Under the pieces are notes generated by a model, which was not told the DNA's origin, made no database searches, and saw only the letters and a program-made list of their open reading frames with translations. This document shows, in pieces, positions 9,123 to 54,688 of a stretch of 64,000 bases of DNA (its first letter is position 1; each line of letters starts with the position of its first letter). The position numbers and the translations under genes are program-made. Source of the DNA: Platanthera guangdongensis. Its lineage: Eukaryota; Streptophyta; Magnoliopsida; Asparagales; Orchidaceae. The stretch is taken from positions 59,029,885 through 59,093,884 of the forward strand of contig CM077161.1 of assembly GCA_039583875.1 (NCBI GenBank). Reading direction: 5' to 3'.

Positions 9123-10613
9123 GTGGCTTCCCAGATCAACGGGGAGTTCGAGGCAAGGGAGCCCACCCTGCGATCGTACTTGGCCAAGGTGAAGGGGGTC
9201 ATTGGCACTTTTCAAACTTTCACCATCCGACACGTGCCCAGGGAAGAGAATGAACAAGCCGATCAGCTAGCAAAGCATGGTCCCCAGGTGGGGGGCACCA
9301 TCACCGACCTATTTCGCCCCTCCATCGAAGAAGGAGAGCTCATGGAAATCGATCAACAAGCTTCGTGGATGAATCCAGTTGTGATTTTCCTCTCCACGGG
9401 AGAGTATCCGGAGGGGGTAGATAAGAAGAAACTGAGGCACAAGTCAGCTTATTACCTCCTCCAGGACGGGCAGCTATACAGGAAGACCCTCTCAGGGATG
9501 CTAGCCTGCTGCGTGACCGAGGGAGAAGTACGAAGGATCTTGGAGGAAGTCCACTCCGGGGAATGTGGGAGTCACTCCGGGAGTCGGACCCTGGAAGGGA
9601 GGATAGTCAGGCAAGGGTATTTCTGGCCCACCCTGGGCCGAGACGCCGCAGAGTTCACAAGAAGATGTCATAAGTGCCAGCTGTTTGCCCCTCTCCAGCT
9701 ACAGCCAGCCCAGCGACTCAGAAGTATCACGGCCCCATGTCCCTTCGCAATTTGGGGAATGGATTTGGTTGGACCATTCCCCCAAGCCAGCGGTCAGAGA
9801 AGGTTCCTCCTAGTAATGATTGACTACTTATCAAAGTGAATGGAGCTGAAGGCGCTGGCCAAGGTGACCTCCCAGGTGATCAGGAACTTTGTTTGGGGGG
9901 AGATAATCTGTCGCCATGGGCTGCCCCAGGCCATCGTCACGGACAATGGGCCCCAGTTCTCCAGTGTCTTATTCACCAGCTTCTGCGAGCAGCTTGGAAT
10001 CGACCTCAGGTTCTCCTCGGTCCATCACCCCAGGAGCAACGGGCAGGTGGAGGCCGCAAACAAGATCATCAACCTCCTCAAGAAGAAGGTGGAGAATTTG
10101 AAGGGGAGCTGGGTGGAGCATCTTCCCGCAGTTCTTTGGGCCCTAAGGACCACCCCCAACACGGCTACGGGAGAGACCCCCTTCAAACTCTCCCATGGAT
10201 GTGAGGCAGTGCTCCCCGTAGATTTCGAAGTCCAAACACCGCGAGTCGTTGCGGAAAAAGAAGGCCGTGAGGAATGGCAAGCGGAGAATGAGGAGGAACT
10301 GAGGCACTCCCTTGACATGGTGGAAGAGATGAGGGACCTTTCCGCTATCCGGCAGGAGGAGGTGAAAAGAAGAATGGTCAAGTACTTTGACAAGCATGTC
10401 AGGGTCAAGCAGTTCGTGGAAGGGGAGTTGGTGCTGAAGAGGGTGGATGTAGCAGGGAGGTCAGCATCCGTAGGGAAGCTCAATCCCAGCTGGGAGGGAC
10501 CATTCATTGTAAAGGAAGCCTTGAGGTCAGGGGGATATCGACTCCAAAATGTAGAGGGCGAGACCCTGAGTCTCACCTGGAATGGTGACGACCTAAAACG
10601 ATTTTTCCCCTGA
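9123..10613 (+). pseudogene. Integrase of Tat element A
   Basis: The zinc-binding N-terminus (HSGECGSHSG, then CHKC) lies near 9555-9685. The catalytic core has GMDLVGPFP, TDNGPQFSS and NGQVEAANK (D, D and E). One nonsense codon, the TGA at 9837-9839 after DYLSK, falls where relatives have Trp. The C-terminal domain ends with FEGELV-like and NPSWEGPFIV motifs and the stop at 10611-10613. There is no chromodomain, as expected for Tat. Integrase joins the cDNA to nuclear DNA. Confidence 0.92.
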
Positions 10614-10700
10614 AGCATGTAAGCCACGCTTTGATTATAATAAATTTCTTCAACTCTCTAATATTATCATAGCTAGCCTGCATAGAGGAATGTAATGTAT

Positions 10701-11715
10701 TTTGGACCCCGAGAAGATCCCGCTGCCAGGCTCTCATCTAGCTGGCAGGGCCGGAAGTCACTCGGTGTCATCCTTAGCCTCGAGCAGATCCCGTTGTCAG
10801 ACTCTCACCTAGCTGACAGGGCCGGATGTCACTTGATGGAATGTGTTTGGACCCTGAGAAGATCCCGATGTCAGGCTCTCATCTAGCTGGCAGGGCCGGA
10901 AGTCACTCGGTGTCATCCTTAGCCTCGAGCAGATCCCGCTGTCAGGATCCCACCTAGCTGACAGGGCCGGATGTCACTCGATGGAATGTATTTGGACCCC
11001 GAGAAGATCCCGCTGTCAGGCTCTCATCTAGCTAGCAGGGCCGGAAGTCACTCGGTGTCATCCTCAGCCTCGAGCAGATCCCGCTGTCAGGCTCCCACCT
11101 AGCTGACAGGGCCGGATATCACTCGATGGAATGTGTTTGGACCCCGAGAAGATCCCGCTGCCAGGCTCTCATCTAGCTGGCAGGGCCGGAAGTCACTCGG
11201 TGTCATCCTTAGCCTCGAGCAGATCCCGCTATCAGGCTCTCACCTAGCTGACAGGGCTGGATATCACTCGATGGAATGTGTTTGGACCCCGAGAAGATCC
11301 CGCTGCCAGGCTCTCATCTAGCTGGCAGGGCCGAAAGTCACTCGATGTCATATTTAGCCTCGAGCAGATCCCGCTGTCAGGCTCCCACCTAGCTGACATG
11401 GCCGGATGTCACTTGATGGAATGTGTTTGGACCCCGAGAAGATCCCGCTGTCAGGCTCTCATCTAGCTGGCAGGGCCGGAAGTCACTCGGTGTCATCCTT
11501 AGCCTCGAGCAGATCCCGCTGTCAGGCTCCCGCCTAGCTGACAGGGCCGGATATCAAGGTAGAGCATGTGTCTGGACCCCGAGAAGATCCCGCTGCCAGG
11601 CTCTCACCTAGCTGGCAGGGCCGGAAGTCACTCGGTGTCATCCTTAGCCTCGAGCAGATCCCGTTGTCAGGCTCACCTAGCTGACAGGGTCGGAGGTCAC
11701 TCGATGGTGTCGGCC
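10701..11715 (+). repeat. Seven 145-base tandem repeats in the 3' region of element A
   Basis: Copies start near 10701, 10846, 10991, 11136, 11281, 11426 and 11571. Each unit is a dimer of two related halves of about 72 bases. The A half has arms CTGCCAG and CTGGCAG, the B half CTGTCAG and CTGACAG, separated by a loop of about 12 bases (GCTCTCATCTAG type). The phrases TAGCCTCGAGCAGATCCCG and GGACCCCGAGAAGATCCCG alternate. Tandem arrays between pol and the 3' LTR are typical of the Tat lineage. Short open frames in this array only follow the repeat period. Confidence 0.93.
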
Positions 11716-12267
11716 TCGAAATCGTCAGATAAAGATCAAAGTCTCAGTGCCAGGGAGCAAGGAGGAAAGGGATCTGTCAAGGCGAGCTCGGGCTCGGCAA
11801 ATCCAGCTCGACATGATCAAAAAGGCACGCCGGGCTGGAGGACTCTGCATGAGCGAGTATGGACTCGTCATTCCCGGCTCGGCATTGGCAAGTAGGTCGC
11901 AGACCCGGGCCTCGCCAAAGGAGGGCGAGCCAGGCCGGGGCACCTCACCCCTTTGCCCGTTTGACTTGGAAAATTTTCCTTTTTTCGGGCTCAACCTGGA
12001 TGGCTCGCGTGCGAGTTATGGTCGCGAAGGGAAGCGCATCCACTCGCAGGCGCGCTCTCATAACTACTCTACTCGTGGAACCTGTCTCGGCGAGGTCGCA
12101 TAGGGAAGCGCTCGCATATATTCAGAGCACAACAAACAGAGTAAAGAGAAGAAAAGGAAGTGGCATGGGTATGATCAAAAACTTTCATTAATTGTTTACA
12201 AAACGTAATTACAGGGGGGCTCGCCTCGGCGAGTGAACAAAAAAGGAAAAAAAAAGAAAACTACAGG
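11716..12267. other. Spacer between tandem array and antisense gene of A
   Basis: I see no credible coding region here. It should contain the 3' end of the antisense transcript, which reads leftward from 12268. An A/T-rich stretch near 12180-12210 and A-rich runs at 12238-12262 lie where that transcript could be polyadenylated, but no signal is certain. Confidence 0.5.
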
Positions 12268-15635: not shown

Positions 15636-15854
15636 TTTTTGGTATCGGTTGTCTTGGTCTTTCCCTCTCGAAGTCGTGGCCGCCTTCTTTTGTGGGGTGG
15701 CGCGCACGTGGTTGTGCACACCAAAGTCTACGAATGAACTCCTGAATGTCCATGATAGGAATGCATTTTTGTATGTTTGAGGAACCTGCGTGTTCCTATT
15801 TTGTGTTGTTTGCTTGGGTACGACCGCTAATGTGTGTGTCTTGTCCACCTTTAG
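15636..15854 (+). other. Primer binding site and leader of C
   Basis: TTTTTGGTATCGG follows the LTR. TGGTATC matches the initiator-Met tRNA primer site, then diverges. Further on, a short hairpin (GGAAC 15781-15785, GTTCC 15792-15796, loop CTGCGT) is conserved in the E leader. The leader contains several ATGs but none in frame with gag, and it ends CACCTTTAG immediately before the gag frame. Confidence 0.65.
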
Positions 15855-16977
15855 GTGACACGAAGTGGAGCTGGGCCGTCTGAGCCCCAGCGTTCTGATG
15901 AAAGTACGACACCAGCTGCGGTGCCTACACCTGCACCGTCTGCGGAACATGTCCGTTTAGTTGCGGAGGCCTTATTTACCATGATCCAAGGTCAGCCACT
16001 TAGGCAAGAACAAGAGGCTGTGAGGCCAGAACAGGTGGTGGCAAGGCCTGAACCTGTCATGGAAGTGGTTCCTCGAGCGGCTGAGAAGCAGCTAACACGG
16101 TTTATGAGTTTCCATCCGCCTATGTTCTCGGGAGCGGGAACCCCGACGCAGGCTGAGGATTGGTTATCGCGCGTCAAGCGAGTGATGACGGCGATAGGAA
16201 CGGCGGAACATCAGAAAGTTACCTTAGCCACCTTCTTGCTTGAAGGAGAAGCGCGTTTATGGTGGGATGAGATGGAGTTGCATCATTTGGCGGGTCGTCC
16301 GTTAACCCAAGTGTCGATGGAAGAATTCTCCCGGCTCTTCCTTGCGAAGCACCTTCCTGTGGCTCAACGAATAGCCATGGAAAATGAATTCCAACGGTTG
16401 ACTCAAGGTGATGGCAGTGTTGACGCGTACCTGCATGAGTTTACTCGCTTGGGGCGGTATGCGGGTTCGATTTTTGCTGATGAGCAGAGGAAGACTAATC
16501 GGTTCTATGAAGGACTGAGGGACGAGTTGAGGTTCCTTGTGTCCAGTTCTGTGAACCAAGGTTTTCAAGCGTTGGTTGACACTGCGACCGCGTTGGAAAA
16601 GGATATGAAGAGGGTGCAAGGGAAGAGAGCGTTGGTGATGACGCAACCGGAGTGGAAGGCGCCCCGCTCTGGAAAATCATTTTACAAGAAGAGATGGGGT
16701 AAGAGGTCCAAGCCGAGTGGACAAGCTCCTTCATCAGTTGCAACGGGAGCAACATCAGGGGCAACCTCCAAGCCAGAAACTCGTACCTGCTTCAATTGTG
16801 GTAGGATGGGGCACATTGCGCGAGATTGCCGGATGCCGCCAAAGAGTGAAAAGAAGGCGGGAGCATCTTATGCGGAGAAAGGAAAAGCGGTGGTTGAGTC
16901 TTCTGCCTCGCAAGCGCAACCCCGGGTCTACAATCTTGGCCTGCAGGAGGCCATCAAGCAGAGTGACGTGGTCACAG
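15855..16977 (+). CDS. gag of chromovirus C
   Basis: The open frame begins with GTG (encoding the start of VTRSGAGPS) directly after an in-frame TAG. The first in-frame ATG is 42 codons further on, although the skipped residues are conserved in E. The retrotransposon gag core follows (FSGAGTPTQAEDWLSRVKRV, LWWDEMELHH, YLHEFTRLGRYA, RFYEGLRDELR). One CCHC knuckle (CFNCGRMGHIARDC) lies at about 16792-16834. The frame ends at a good 5' splice site (CACAG|GTATGAG); the unspliced frame would stop at 17022-17024. Gag forms the particle and binds RNA. Confidence 0.88.
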
Positions 16978-37795: not shown

Positions 37796-39014
37796 CTGAG
37801 ATAACCTGGGGTGACATCTGTGCTTCCTCTGAGGAGATCACATTTAGCTTCCCTTTTCCTTTGTACAAACGCGGAGGCGGAGGCAAAGCCTGGAGTGGCA
37901 TTGGCTGCAGCACGGGTTGGTTTTGTGGGCACCTTGCCTTCAGATGTCCCTGTTTGCCACACTGGAAGCACACCTTGTCCTTGACCCAGCAGCGGCTCAT
38001 ATCATGACCTCTCCCCCCACAAGCTGTACACTCCAAGTCTCTGGTTGGCGCACTCTGAATGGCGTGCACCTGCTCCTTCTTTTGCATCCCCAACCGCTTG
38101 AAACATTTCTCAAATGGGTGGCCTGACCGGCCACAGAAGCTACACGTCTCCTTCATCTTCTTCCTTACATCTGAGTCTTGGGAGCTTTTCCCTCCCATCA
38201 GCTTCCTCTTATCCTTCCTCATCAGTTGTCCTCTTTGTTTTTCATTTTCGATAGCTTCAACCTTCAACGCAGCCTCCACCACAGTGGTGTAACTCGTCGC
38301 TCCATAAGCACTTGCGAACTGCTGCACGTCGCTGCGGAGTCCGCTAAGAAATCTCTTTACGCGGTCAGCTTCCGTCGTCACCAAGCTCGGAGCGAACCGA
38401 CTTAACTTGCTAAACTCAATTTCATACTCACTAACTGTGAGTTTCCTCTGCTTCAGCTACAAGAAATCATTCATCAGGCGGTCCCTTTCAACTGACGGCA
38501 GAAACTTGTGTCGTAACATGTCTTTAAAAGTTTCCCACGAACATCCCGCCCCTAGGCCTTCCTTTTCTCGCAACCACCAACCTTTCGCCAACCCTTTGAG
38601 TTGATAGGCGGCAAGCATCACCTTCTGGTCCTCAGTAACGCCAGAATAACCAAACATTTCTTCTAACGTGATCACCCAATCATCCAAGAGCACAAAGTCC
38701 GCTTTTCCATCATAAGTCGGTGGTCCAAGTCGCTGAAACTGCGAGATGAAAGTCATCGCAGGAGGAACCACAACTGGGGTTATCACTGCCACAGAAGGAG
38801 TAGAAATGGTGGGGCCTCGGACCGTCTCTTGCCCTCTTGGTGCCAGTCCAGACATCGCTGAGGACATAGCTTGGAGATGGGACTGCACCTCCTGCACCTG
38901 CCTCGTCAACGCTTCATTACTTTGGCGTAAACTATCCATCAGGGCATTATTCTGCGCGCCCGAAGACTCGCCCTCGGATTGGGGAGTTTGCCTTGTCACT
39001 GGACGCTTCGACAT
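37796..39014 (-). pseudogene. gag of chromovirus D (triple zinc knuckle)
   Basis: The start is the ATG at 39012-39014 (MSKRPVTRQTPQSEGESSG), which directly follows TTTATAG. The core has MTFISQFQRLGPPTYDGKAD, LLDDWVITLEEMF and KGWWLREKEGL. A TAG at 38457-38459 interrupts (Gln to stop by comparison). After it the frame continues to three CCHC knuckles: [28 protein letters not shown] and [14 protein letters not shown]. Three knuckles is more than C or E carry (one each). Confidence 0.88.
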
Positions 39015-39332
39015 CCTATAAACACGTTCACTCTTATCAAGCTCAAACCCAACAAAACACACAACGGCTATGTACAGACCCTACATATATAAATATGAAT
39101 ATCAACTGCTAACTTGCTCTGGGAGTTTGAGAATGATGGTATGCCTAACCTAAAGATGACGTGCCTAACCCATGAATGTATGACTTTATTTGACCCAAAA
39201 CCATGAGTGTACAGGTGTCATCATGTACATCTTTAGCTTGGCATGTTGTGCTCATGCAATGTTATGTTATGCGTGCTGTGCGATGCAATCTAGAAAAGCC
39301 TTAATGCATGCCATGAGCGGTCGTACGCATCA

Positions 39333-39504
39333 CAATGCTATGCATCCTATACTACATAGCATTGCATGCTACGAAGAAAAGAAAACGTGCTAGTCGCATC
39401 CATGTGATAAGGTTATGCATCACATACTACATAACCCGCACATGTTGCCCCTATGGTGGATCCATATACAACCACATATTATGCATCTCATACTACATAA
39501 TATG
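39333..39504 (-). other. Triple hairpin in the leader of D
   Basis: There are three hairpins with 12-base loops, between primer binding site and gag. Arms: 39475-39483/39496-39504 (CATATTATG/CATAATATG), 39411-39417/39430-39436 (GGTTATG/CATAACC, with outer CATGTG/CACATG), and 39333-39342/39355-39364 (CAATGCTATG/CATAGCATTG). Loops in the sense of D read TAGTATNNGATG. F has the same three in the same order. Confidence 0.85.
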
Positions 39505-39643
39505 CCCCGTATACTTCTTGTCATGCCATGAGTGTAGTGTGCGTGCGTCGGCCAAGACATACTAATGGCACCTCGGTGTGTGTATGATATGATGCTTACA
39601 ACCAAACAAGAAAGTTTGCCCGACCAATTGTCAAGCAAACCTT

Positions 39644-39655
39644 CCTCTGATACCA
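39644..39655 (-). other. Primer binding site of D (initiator Met)
   Basis: TGGTATCAGAGG on the minus strand lies two bases after the LTR end at 39658. Confidence 0.88.
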
Positions 39656-52782: not shown

Positions 52783-52794
52783 TGGTATCAGAGG
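52783..52794 (+). other. Primer binding site of F (initiator Met)
   Basis: TGGTATCAGAGG lies two bases after the LTR end at 52780, the same spacing as in D. Confidence 0.88.
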
Positions 52795-52938
52795 GAAGTT
52801 ACTTGACAATTTGTCAGGCAACCTTTCCTTGTAGGTATTAGATGTTTAGCATCATATCATACACACACCGATATGTCATCAGCACATCTTGGCTGAAGCA
52901 CGAACACTACACTCATAGCATAACTGAAGTATACGGGG

Positions 52939-53112
52939 CATATTATGTAGTATGGGATGCATAATATGTGTCTGTATATGGATCCACCATATGGGTAACA
53001 TGTGAGGGTTATGTAGTATGGGATGCATAACCTCACCACATGAATGCGACTAGCACGTTTTTTTTCGTTGCATGAGAATGTTATGTAGTATGGGATGCAT
53101 AACATTTTCATG
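52939..53112 (+). other. Triple hairpin in the leader of F
   Basis: Arms are 52939-52947/52960-52968 (9 bp), 53002-53013/53026-53036 (11 bp with one bulged G) and 53071-53085/53098-53112 (15 bp with one G-U). Each encloses the identical 12-base loop TAGTATGGGATG. The stems differ in sequence (ATATTATG, GGTTATG and AATGTTATG next to the loop) and appear in the same order as in D. Confidence 0.88.
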
Positions 53113-53465
53113 CGTACGCCACTCATGATATGCATTAGGGCCTTTTTTAGAATGCATAGCACAATCATGCGTAGCATAACATTGCATTAGCACAACGTGT
53201 CAAGCTAAAGATTTGCAGGATGACATATGTACACACATGGTTTTAAATCAGAAAAATAATATAAACTCATGCATTCCCGATCTAGGCACAAGAGTTAGTT
53301 GATGGTGGTTAACCATCCTAGGTTAGGAATAGCATCACTTTTGTTAAACAAATAAAATCCCAAAGCATGTATAGCAGTTAAAAGTTCATATTTATGTATT
53401 GTCTGTACTGGTAGTTTGTTCCAACTGTTGAACTAGGTTTTGACCTCAGTTTTTATGGTTTTAGG

Positions 53466-54688
53466 ATGGCGAGACGTCCTTCGACTAGGTCGACTCCCCT
53501 ATCTGAGGGTGAGTCCTCAGGAGCGCAGAGTGATGCGGTGATCGAGAGCCTGCGATAGAGCAACGATTCCTTGACCAGGCAGTTGGTGGAGATGCAGGCC
53601 CAGATCCAGTCTCTGGTGGTAGTTGTGGCGGGACAGACTCAGGGAGTGCAAGACCCAGCAGGGGGGTTAGCTGCTCCTCCCCCTCCTGCTCCCCTGGACC
53701 TCCAGTGGTGGTGTCAGCAGAGATGGCCTTTATTTCTCAGTTTCAGAGACTTAGCCCTCCTACATATGATGGCAAGGCAGATTTCATGGTCATAGATGAT
53801 TGGCAGATCTCCATGGAGGAGATGTTCTCGTACTCCGGTGTTGTAGATGATCAAAGAGTGATGATAGCCGCCTATCAGCTAAAGGGTTTGGCTAAGAGGT
53901 GGTGGCTTAGGGAAAAGGAGAGCTTGGTGACTGGTTGCTCTTGGGGATTATTCAAGGAGATGTTGTTGAGGAAGTTCTTGCCTTCGGTCGAGCGTGACAG
54001 ACTAATAAATGACTTCCTTCACCTGAAGCATAGGCAACTCACGGTCAGTGAGTATGAGATAGAGTTCAGCAAGTTGAGCTGGTTTGCTCCTGGGTTGGTG
54101 AGTGTTGAAGCTGATCGAGTCAAGCGGTTCCTTGGTGATTTGAGGAGCGAGGTTCAGCAGTTGGCCAGTGTATATGGATCAGAGACTTATGCAGGCGTAA
54201 TGGAGGCTGCTCTGAAAGTGGAGGCAATTGAGACCGCAAAGAACAAAAGCCAGCAAATGAGGAAGGACAAGAGTAAGTCTGCTGAAGAGAAGAACCCCCA
54301 GGTACTCGATGCTGCTTCGGGAAAGAGGAGCAAGGTAGTGTGTAGCTTCTGTGGCCGGTCAGGCCACCCTGTTGAGAGGTGTTTCAAGAAGGCGGGAGCT
54401 CAAAAGAAGGAGCAAGTTCATGCTATTCAAGGTGCTCCTAGGAAGGATGTTTCCTGTTCTGTTTGCAAGCGACCCGGGCATGATGCTTCCCAGTGCTAGT
54501 CAAAGGATAAAGTCTGCTATCAGTGTGGCCAGAAGGGCCATATTAAGACAAGGTGTCCTCAGGCCCAACCTGTTCTTCAAGTAGTTCACTTCAGGCTTTA
54601 CCTCCTCCTCAGCGTGTGGATAAGGGCAAAGGAAAGCTGAACGTGATCTCTTCCGAGGAGGCTCAAACTTCGACTCAGGTCATCTCAG
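53466..54688 (+). pseudogene. gag of chromovirus F (triple zinc knuckle)
   Basis: The ATG at 53466 (MARRPSTRSTPLSEGESSG) follows TTTTAG. Lesions are TAG at 53556-53558 (Gln in D), a frameshift around 53690-53705, TAG at about 54497-54499 (Trp in D) and a frameshift near 54575. The core is MAFISQFQRLSPPTYDGKAD, DDWQISMEEMF and RWWLREKESL. Knuckles are CSFCGRSGHPVERC, CSVCKRPGHDASQC and CYQCGQKGHIKTRC. The gag end ISSEEAQTSTQVIS precedes the intron. Confidence 0.88.

Follow-up and report, generated by a model that had tools for sequence, protein, structure and literature searches.

In the portions of the cited papers drawn on here, the packaging signal of CaMV sits atop a leader stem-loop and is bound by the coat protein, and RTBV has a putative purine-rich packaging signal in its leader (PMC5902531). 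A purine loop of MMTV is bound by Gag (PMC8096270), and the zinc fingers of the HIV-1 nucleocapsid take exposed guanosines; replacement of the HIV-1 GGAG loop abolished nucleocapsid binding and hardly affected packaging (PMC7395439), so that loop binding need not mean packaging. For the repeated loops of coronavirus SL5, a packaging signal has been proposed (PMC10927501). The clades of plant chromoviruses in REXdb include Tekay, Reina, Galadriel and CRM (PMC6317226); the words 'leader', 'zinc' and 'CCHC' are absent from the main text of that paper. A trio of same-loop hairpins in the leader of a plant retrotransposon was not found in the literature searched, which comprised titles and the openings of abstracts and covered few subscription papers.

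We describe here such a trio in two related Ty3/gypsy elements, D on the minus strand and F on the plus strand of the window (the whole stretch of 64,000 nucleotides that was analysed). Both have gag, pol and a chromodomain-like C-terminal region. Gag or zinc-knuckle matches were obtained with Pfam for both, and the Pfam Chromo matches (E 7e-4 for F, 3e-5 for D) are below the curated cut-off and in the expected C-terminal place.

Hairpins in the leaders of D and F

The first-pass annotation of the window had reported three hairpins with one loop between the primer site and gag of each element, and these are real and were placed correctly (Table 1). The 12-base loop TAGTATGGGATG is identical in all three hairpins of F. 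With one mismatch allowed, there are eight matches in the window against 2.1 expected (maximum of six in 100 shuffles), and the six perfect matches are exactly the D trio and the F trio. The ends of the 12-mer pair with one another (T1.G12 and A2-T11), which leaves an exposed 8-nt loop, GTATNNGA. All six hairpins fold when taken alone, and the leaders of F and D fold better than shuffled sequences (z -3.5 and -3.1, respectively, with 0 of 20 shuffles as good in each case). Stems of 9, 11 and 15 bp had been proposed; the first of these stands, with a predicted basal helix in addition to the nine pairs, but the other two are refined, H2 to eight contiguous pairs (one of them G.U), an internal loop and six outer pairs, and H3 of F to the length given in Table 1. 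In a shorter piece, H2 takes an alternative fold with a longer stem and a bulge. Between F and D, H3 differs by T-A to C-G at one pair and by G.T to C-G at another.

The domain lies in the leader about 160 nt past the primer site and upstream of a three-knuckle gag, with nearly fixed spacing of the hairpins. Sequence resembling a primer site is present in D, in F and in 39 of the 40 loci L018-L057, and that of F we take to be of the initiator-Met tRNA type. A model of the trio scores D and F in the window with E-values no higher than 1.7e-39; after these comes a match at E 0.017 that overlaps F on the other strand, whereas the Rfam covariance models gave no match in the window at the gathering threshold and none in the F leader at E <=1. 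Elsewhere in the window, a tandem array with a unit of 145 nt occupies 10556-11725, just past an ORF ending at 10613, and overlapping 300-nt windows of this array are 61-95% like the reference copy.

Table 1. Positions of the leader and gag features of elements F and D in the window
Element	Feature	Position	Strand	Details
F	Primer-binding site	52783..52794	+	TGGTATCAGAGG; sequence read
F	Conserved leader domain	52850..53250	+	Pairwise identity, 15 copies; peak 52950-53050
F	Hairpin 1 (H1)	52939..52968	+	9 bp; 12-nt loop 52948-52959
F	Palindrome, H1-H2 spacer	52979..52986	+	TGGATCCA; candidate dimer-start site
F	Hairpin 2 (H2)	52999..53042	+	Outer helix CATGTG/CACATG; loop 53014-53025
F	Hairpin 3 (H3)	53070..53113	+	16 pairs including one G.U; loop 53086-53097
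F	TAG directly before gag start	53462..53464	+	Acceptor-like; ATG 53466-53468
F	Three CCHC zinc knuckles of Gag	54341..54556	+
D	Primer-binding site	39644..39655	-
D	Hairpin 1	39475..39504	-	Loop 39484-39495, TAGTATGAGATG
D	Palindrome	39457..39464	-	TGGATCCA
D	Hairpin 2	39410..39437	-	Inner 8 pairs; loop 39418-39429, TAGTATGTGATG
D	Hairpin 3	39327..39369	-	Loop 39343-39354, TAGTATAGGATG
D	TAG directly before gag start	39016..39018	-	ATG 39012-39014
D	Three CCHC zinc knuckles of Gag	37929..38144	-

Copies, conservation and covariation

The genome of 4,245,561,818 bases contains 24,828 occurrences of TAGTATGGGATG, against 719 of the reversed control word; with three loops to a leader and 73% of loops exact, this corresponds by a rough reckoning to a family that probably numbers some ten thousand leaders. 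Copies were sampled by the loop, by a flank and by likeness to the gag of D, so that distant subfamilies are under-sampled. Among the first 100 places listed, the loop word itself gave 20 clusters (L018-L037): 19 of them form trios that follow a primer site at a distance of about 165-170 nt, and the remaining one is a lone match with neither trio nor primer site. An exact 19-nt flank, present at 2,352 places, gave 60 copies (L038-L097) taken from the 100 matches listed, every one on contig C1, and all three hairpins are present in 55 of them, allowing up to six mismatches per 20-nt core. The five without a full trio are L038, L039, L046, L063 and L079. By eye, the leader of L038 breaks into pol-like sequence and that of L046 into unrelated sequence; the leader of L039 is peppered with short insertions, several of them T-rich, through either assembly error or odd decay. 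Among the 30 best of 150 places scored for likeness to the D gag (L098-L127), the trio is present in 25 and H3 is damaged in one (L120); L100, L104, L111 and L124 have no recognisable primer site or leader landmarks. The annotation had allowed for a trio that other family members do not share; it recurs in them at the frequencies just given for the flank- and gag-picked copies. Alignment A1 omits L029 and L031, which nearly duplicate L028 and L030; L032, which has the trio yet too diverged a flank, stands outside the counts of loops, pairing, TAG and ATG-stop or palindrome given below.

A first look at the genome gave 39,387 candidates with a gag region of the D type and 109,230 with one of the B type, 150 of each being scored. 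Protein search with the D gag region yielded eight relatives, of which seven come from Platanthera zijinensis and a single one from P. guangdongensis; identity in the aligned portion is 61-80%. A search of IMG/VR with a piece of the reverse transcriptase found no relative. Matches to a 20-place pattern in five IMG/VR and four GTDB stretches, one in each, were taken as chance and not as relatives; the two of these stretches whose ORFs were listed (L001 and L005) carry unrelated genes. In the literature the loop 12-mer turned up a single paper, on HIV methylation, and this too was taken to match by chance.

Over 105 pairs of copies the mean divergence is 0.073 in the trio block, as against 0.280 in gag, 0.256 in the LTR end and 0.277 in the 3' leader. 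Among 15 representatives, hand-chosen from 42 copies, identity is 0.86-0.95 in the leader domain and 0.53-0.85 in windows from gag on, with a peak of 0.94-0.95 at H1-H2 and a value of 0.63 just before gag. An ungapped stretch of 140 nt (52926-53065 in F, 39378-39517 in D) is 92% identical between the two elements; their pol genes, over 746 aligned codons, reach 87% in the best 140-nt window with a mean of 75%, and are identical at 83 of 169 four-fold sites. The leaders of 85 deep pairs (gag divergence >0.25) differ by 2.7-13.5%, and within the block of such pairs the difference is 8.8% in spacers, 8.2% in stems and 5.3% in loops. Since the spacers are nearly as conserved as the stems, the conserved unit is the whole block, in which the hairpins are not singled out. 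Leader distance tracks gag distance (rho 0.73), which, with no deep pair below 2.7%, points to slow evolution rather than recent exchange of leaders. Across diverged subfamilies the trio block has evolved at about a quarter of the rate of gag, and the free drift of loops and stems that the annotation had named as evidence to the contrary was not seen.

The stems had also been described as differing in sequence yet staying complementary, and this extends to the wider sample: in 73 distinct trios, 1988 of 2044 cells are paired (97.3%), against at most 61% in controls with slid partners. Covariation is confined to H3, and H1 and H2 vary so little that none comes from them. At H3 pair 5 the 73 trios have TA in 51, CG in 17, TG in three and CA in two, and at H3 pair 10 they have GT in 32, CG in 23, AT in 16 and no pair in two, so that each position (TA/TG/CG and GT/AT/CG) is paired in 71 of 73. 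Changes without compensation are seen at H1 pair 5, which fails to pair in 11 of 73 (TxC in ten, TxT in one), and at H3 pair 4, which is CxA in ten of 73. In a 35-row alignment, two-sided changes fall in four of 45 pairs, all in H3; the cells with two-sided changes number 29, compared with 11.3 for shuffles, none of 500 of which attains 29, but neither the four pairs with such changes (reached by 108 of 500 shuffles) nor the 16 extra pair types (275 of 500) stand above the shuffles of that alignment. The covariation term of RNAalifold is small, at -1.55 of -55.16 kcal/mol. G.U is frequent at kept positions (69 of 73 at H2 pair 8, 32 at H3 pair 10 and 40 at H3 pair 11), and, as such pairs would read A.C on the opposite strand and be mismatched in DNA, they argue for an RNA of the sense strand and against a DNA cruciform. 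From the aligned copies we consider it very probable that the leader contains a selected sense-strand RNA structure.

The 165 loops counted comprise 120 of TAGTATGGGATG and 29 of TAGTATGAGATG, and the 8-nt consensus is GTATGNGA, in which N is mostly G or A. Position 8 is other than G in 39 of the 165 (A in 33, T in six) and every other position varies in none to four; the loop differences reported for D are thus present, but the larger sample frees essentially the eighth base only. A change of the eighth base tends to hit just one of a copy's three loops, a weak hint. On the opposite strand each of the three Gs of the run falls in CHH context; deamination alone would then not be expected to pick the middle one. 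An ATG followed immediately by a stop, the minimal form of a uORF, is present in 157 of the 165 hairpins, and upstream of gag there are 32 ATGs in F and 29 in D. The TAT that follows TAG is unchanged in all 165 loops, and TAG itself is altered seven times. The loop TAG-T-ATG of F (52948-52959) is arranged like its gag start, TAG-G-ATG (53462-53468), through coincidence or as a possible decoy. A kissing-loop dimerisation hairpin was considered and rejected, there being no palindrome of 6 or 8 in any of the 165 loops, and so was the idea that the loop has a partner elsewhere in the pieces of D and F, where just one 6-mer each turned up. The 8-nt spacer palindrome TGGATCCA between H1 and H2 is present in 51 of 55 flank-anchored copies.

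Gag and the gag start

The annotation had suggested that the trio goes together with a three-knuckle gag. Of this, the presence of the trio in 25 of 30 gag-picked copies is in favour, but the knuckles are complete in only 21 of the 36 trio copies from L018-L057, with one or two knuckles in 11 and none in four, these pieces being partly decayed; the association is good, if incomplete. Residues within the knuckles vary between subfamilies, while the loop stays constant.

The start of gag was located in 71 of 75 trio copies, and TAG is present there in 69, of which 63 were found by script (one or two bases before the ATG) and six by eye, with the ATG dead or outside the counted frame; L060 and L095 are without it. 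By comparison, YAG stands one base before 364 of 2247 upstream ATGs, many of which are the hairpin loops themselves. The 63 copies found by script fall into nine groups, built from these TAG-bearing copies only, whose likeness to one another in the 60 nt preceding TAG is below 70%. By simple count, 23 of 32 copies have a YTNAY word 26-30 nt upstream of the ATG.

The gag frame of the B-type chromovirus, which has a single knuckle, opens directly behind CACCTTTAG, at the junction CACCTTTAG|GTGACACG; an in-frame stop precedes it and an ATG is lacking in all 11 of 11 copies, namely B (15825-15880 of the window, plus strand, with gag at 15855) and ten close copies (L128-L137, 96-98%). Splicing from a start exon further upstream may be required for this gag. 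By eye, element E (minus strand, near 49.4 kb) reads TATAG/GTGACC at the corresponding place. The conserved TAG of the trio copies and the ATG-less start of the B type suggest, as sequence patterns, splicing to the gag start. Reinitiation from stop to start at the pre-gag TAG is disfavoured, as an ATG frame ends there in only five of 29 copies (L018, L023, L043, L045 and L047). No 5' splice donor above threshold was found from the primer site to H1 in 15 copies, using a weight matrix and a threshold of our own; three copies have a donor close to gag, some 520 nt past the primer site. A search with one exact D-type pattern allowing a gap of 0-30 nt, run without a positive control, gave 0 copies of a spliced junction. 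With neither a good donor nor a spliced-junction copy, we put the intron forward tentatively. It is unlikely, if conceivable, that the trio lies in a retained intron, the gag mRNA being spliced to the TAG and the unspliced RNA packaged through loops read by the three-knuckle Gag. If true, some 30 upstream AUGs and the trio would be removed together, and plants would have an equivalent of the switch between splicing and packaging in retroviruses.

Readings of the block and comparison with known systems

We give an even chance to the trio block being a packaging-type leader domain, and hold the question of whether packaging or Gag binding would be the main job of this domain to be similarly balanced. 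The trio would form the core of an RNA domain of about 200-400 nt in the leader of the genomic (unspliced) RNA, and this domain would act in cis as a packaging signal. The zinc knuckles of Gag would read the exposed purines of the loops, with three copies providing avidity, and the palindrome TGGATCCA of the H1-H2 spacer would start dimerisation. A near-invariant, repeated loop would be a concrete RNA ligand for a Gag with three zinc knuckles. The annotation had offered a packaging, dimerisation or Gag-binding element as a candidate, which accords with a retained sense-strand structure in the leader of a family with three-knuckle gag (25 of 30 copies), except that the loops would make poor dimerisation sites.

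The loops could instead be read by a host RNA-binding protein, for the export, stability or localisation of the genomic RNA. We regard this as unlikely, albeit with some points to commend it: the 8-nt loop is fixed, occurs three times and stays constant though knuckle residues differ among subfamilies, and the plant element BARE divides its RNAs among distinct pools according to the portion of the paper drawn on (PMC3735527). The other chromovirus lineage of the window (B and its ten close copies) is, however, without the trio, so that a partner specific to the element fits better than a general host factor. A somewhat lower probability attaches to translation control, by which the apical AUG-UAG of the hairpins and about 30 upstream AUGs would stall or shunt ribosomes and so regulate Gag. 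The start-stop motif in 157 of 165 hairpins and the 32 and 29 upstream ATGs of F and D would suit such control, as would the short uORFs and stem-loops that pararetrovirus leaders use for shunting in the part of the source drawn on (PMC5902531). The remainder of the loop, however, is not needed for start and stop and is at least as fixed (TAT changed in none of 165, TAG in seven), and splicing at the acceptor-like TAG of the gag start would strip the upstream AUGs away. In the known ribosome shunt, moreover, the uORF is before the base of the stem and not at its apex, a position different from that of the AUG-UAG here. We think it improbable that the block serves chiefly as a structure for dimerisation or for tRNA and strand transfer with little sequence-specific recognition by protein; TGGATCCA in 51 of 55 copies and the adjoining primer site would agree with this, but the fixed loop would go unexplained and has no palindrome of 6 or 8 nt. 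A block without function, alike through recent duplication of hairpins or recent leader exchange, is very improbable, for although the three hairpins have a 20-nt core in common and probably arose by duplication, and retroelements recombine and could exchange leaders, leader and gag distances go together (rho 0.73), no deep pair is below 2.7% and H3 has compensated changes.

Kinship of a packaging-type leader domain with known systems was assessed through Rfam, with no match, and the remaining likenesses are by description, as far as the portions of the papers cited extend. D and F resemble the chromoviruses of REXdb in gag, pol and their chromodomain-like C-terminal region (PMC6317226). They are like Ty1/Ty3 and BARE in that LTR retrotransposons have 5' signals for dimerisation and packaging, but Ty1 uses a pseudoknot and palindromes, and a same-loop trio is not described in the parts drawn on (PMC4974528, PMC3735527). 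The Psi of HIV-1 and MMTV is likewise structured leader RNA with exposed purines, read in HIV-1 by a zinc-finger Gag (PMC7395439, PMC8096270); unlike retroviral Psi, the domain of D and F, a candidate Gag-binding site, matches no Rfam family. Coronavirus SL5 resembles the trio in that two or three hairpins near the 5' end share a loop motif (UUYYGU), although the virus is unrelated, the loop is another and a four-way junction holds the start codon (PMC10927501). CaMV and RTBV are, like D and F, reverse-transcribing elements of plants with a uORF-bearing leader and a signal exposed on a leader stem-loop (PMC5902531), but the caulimovirus primer site is near the end of the leader, unlike that of D and F, and a single site tops one very large stem-loop where D and F have three hairpins with the same loop.
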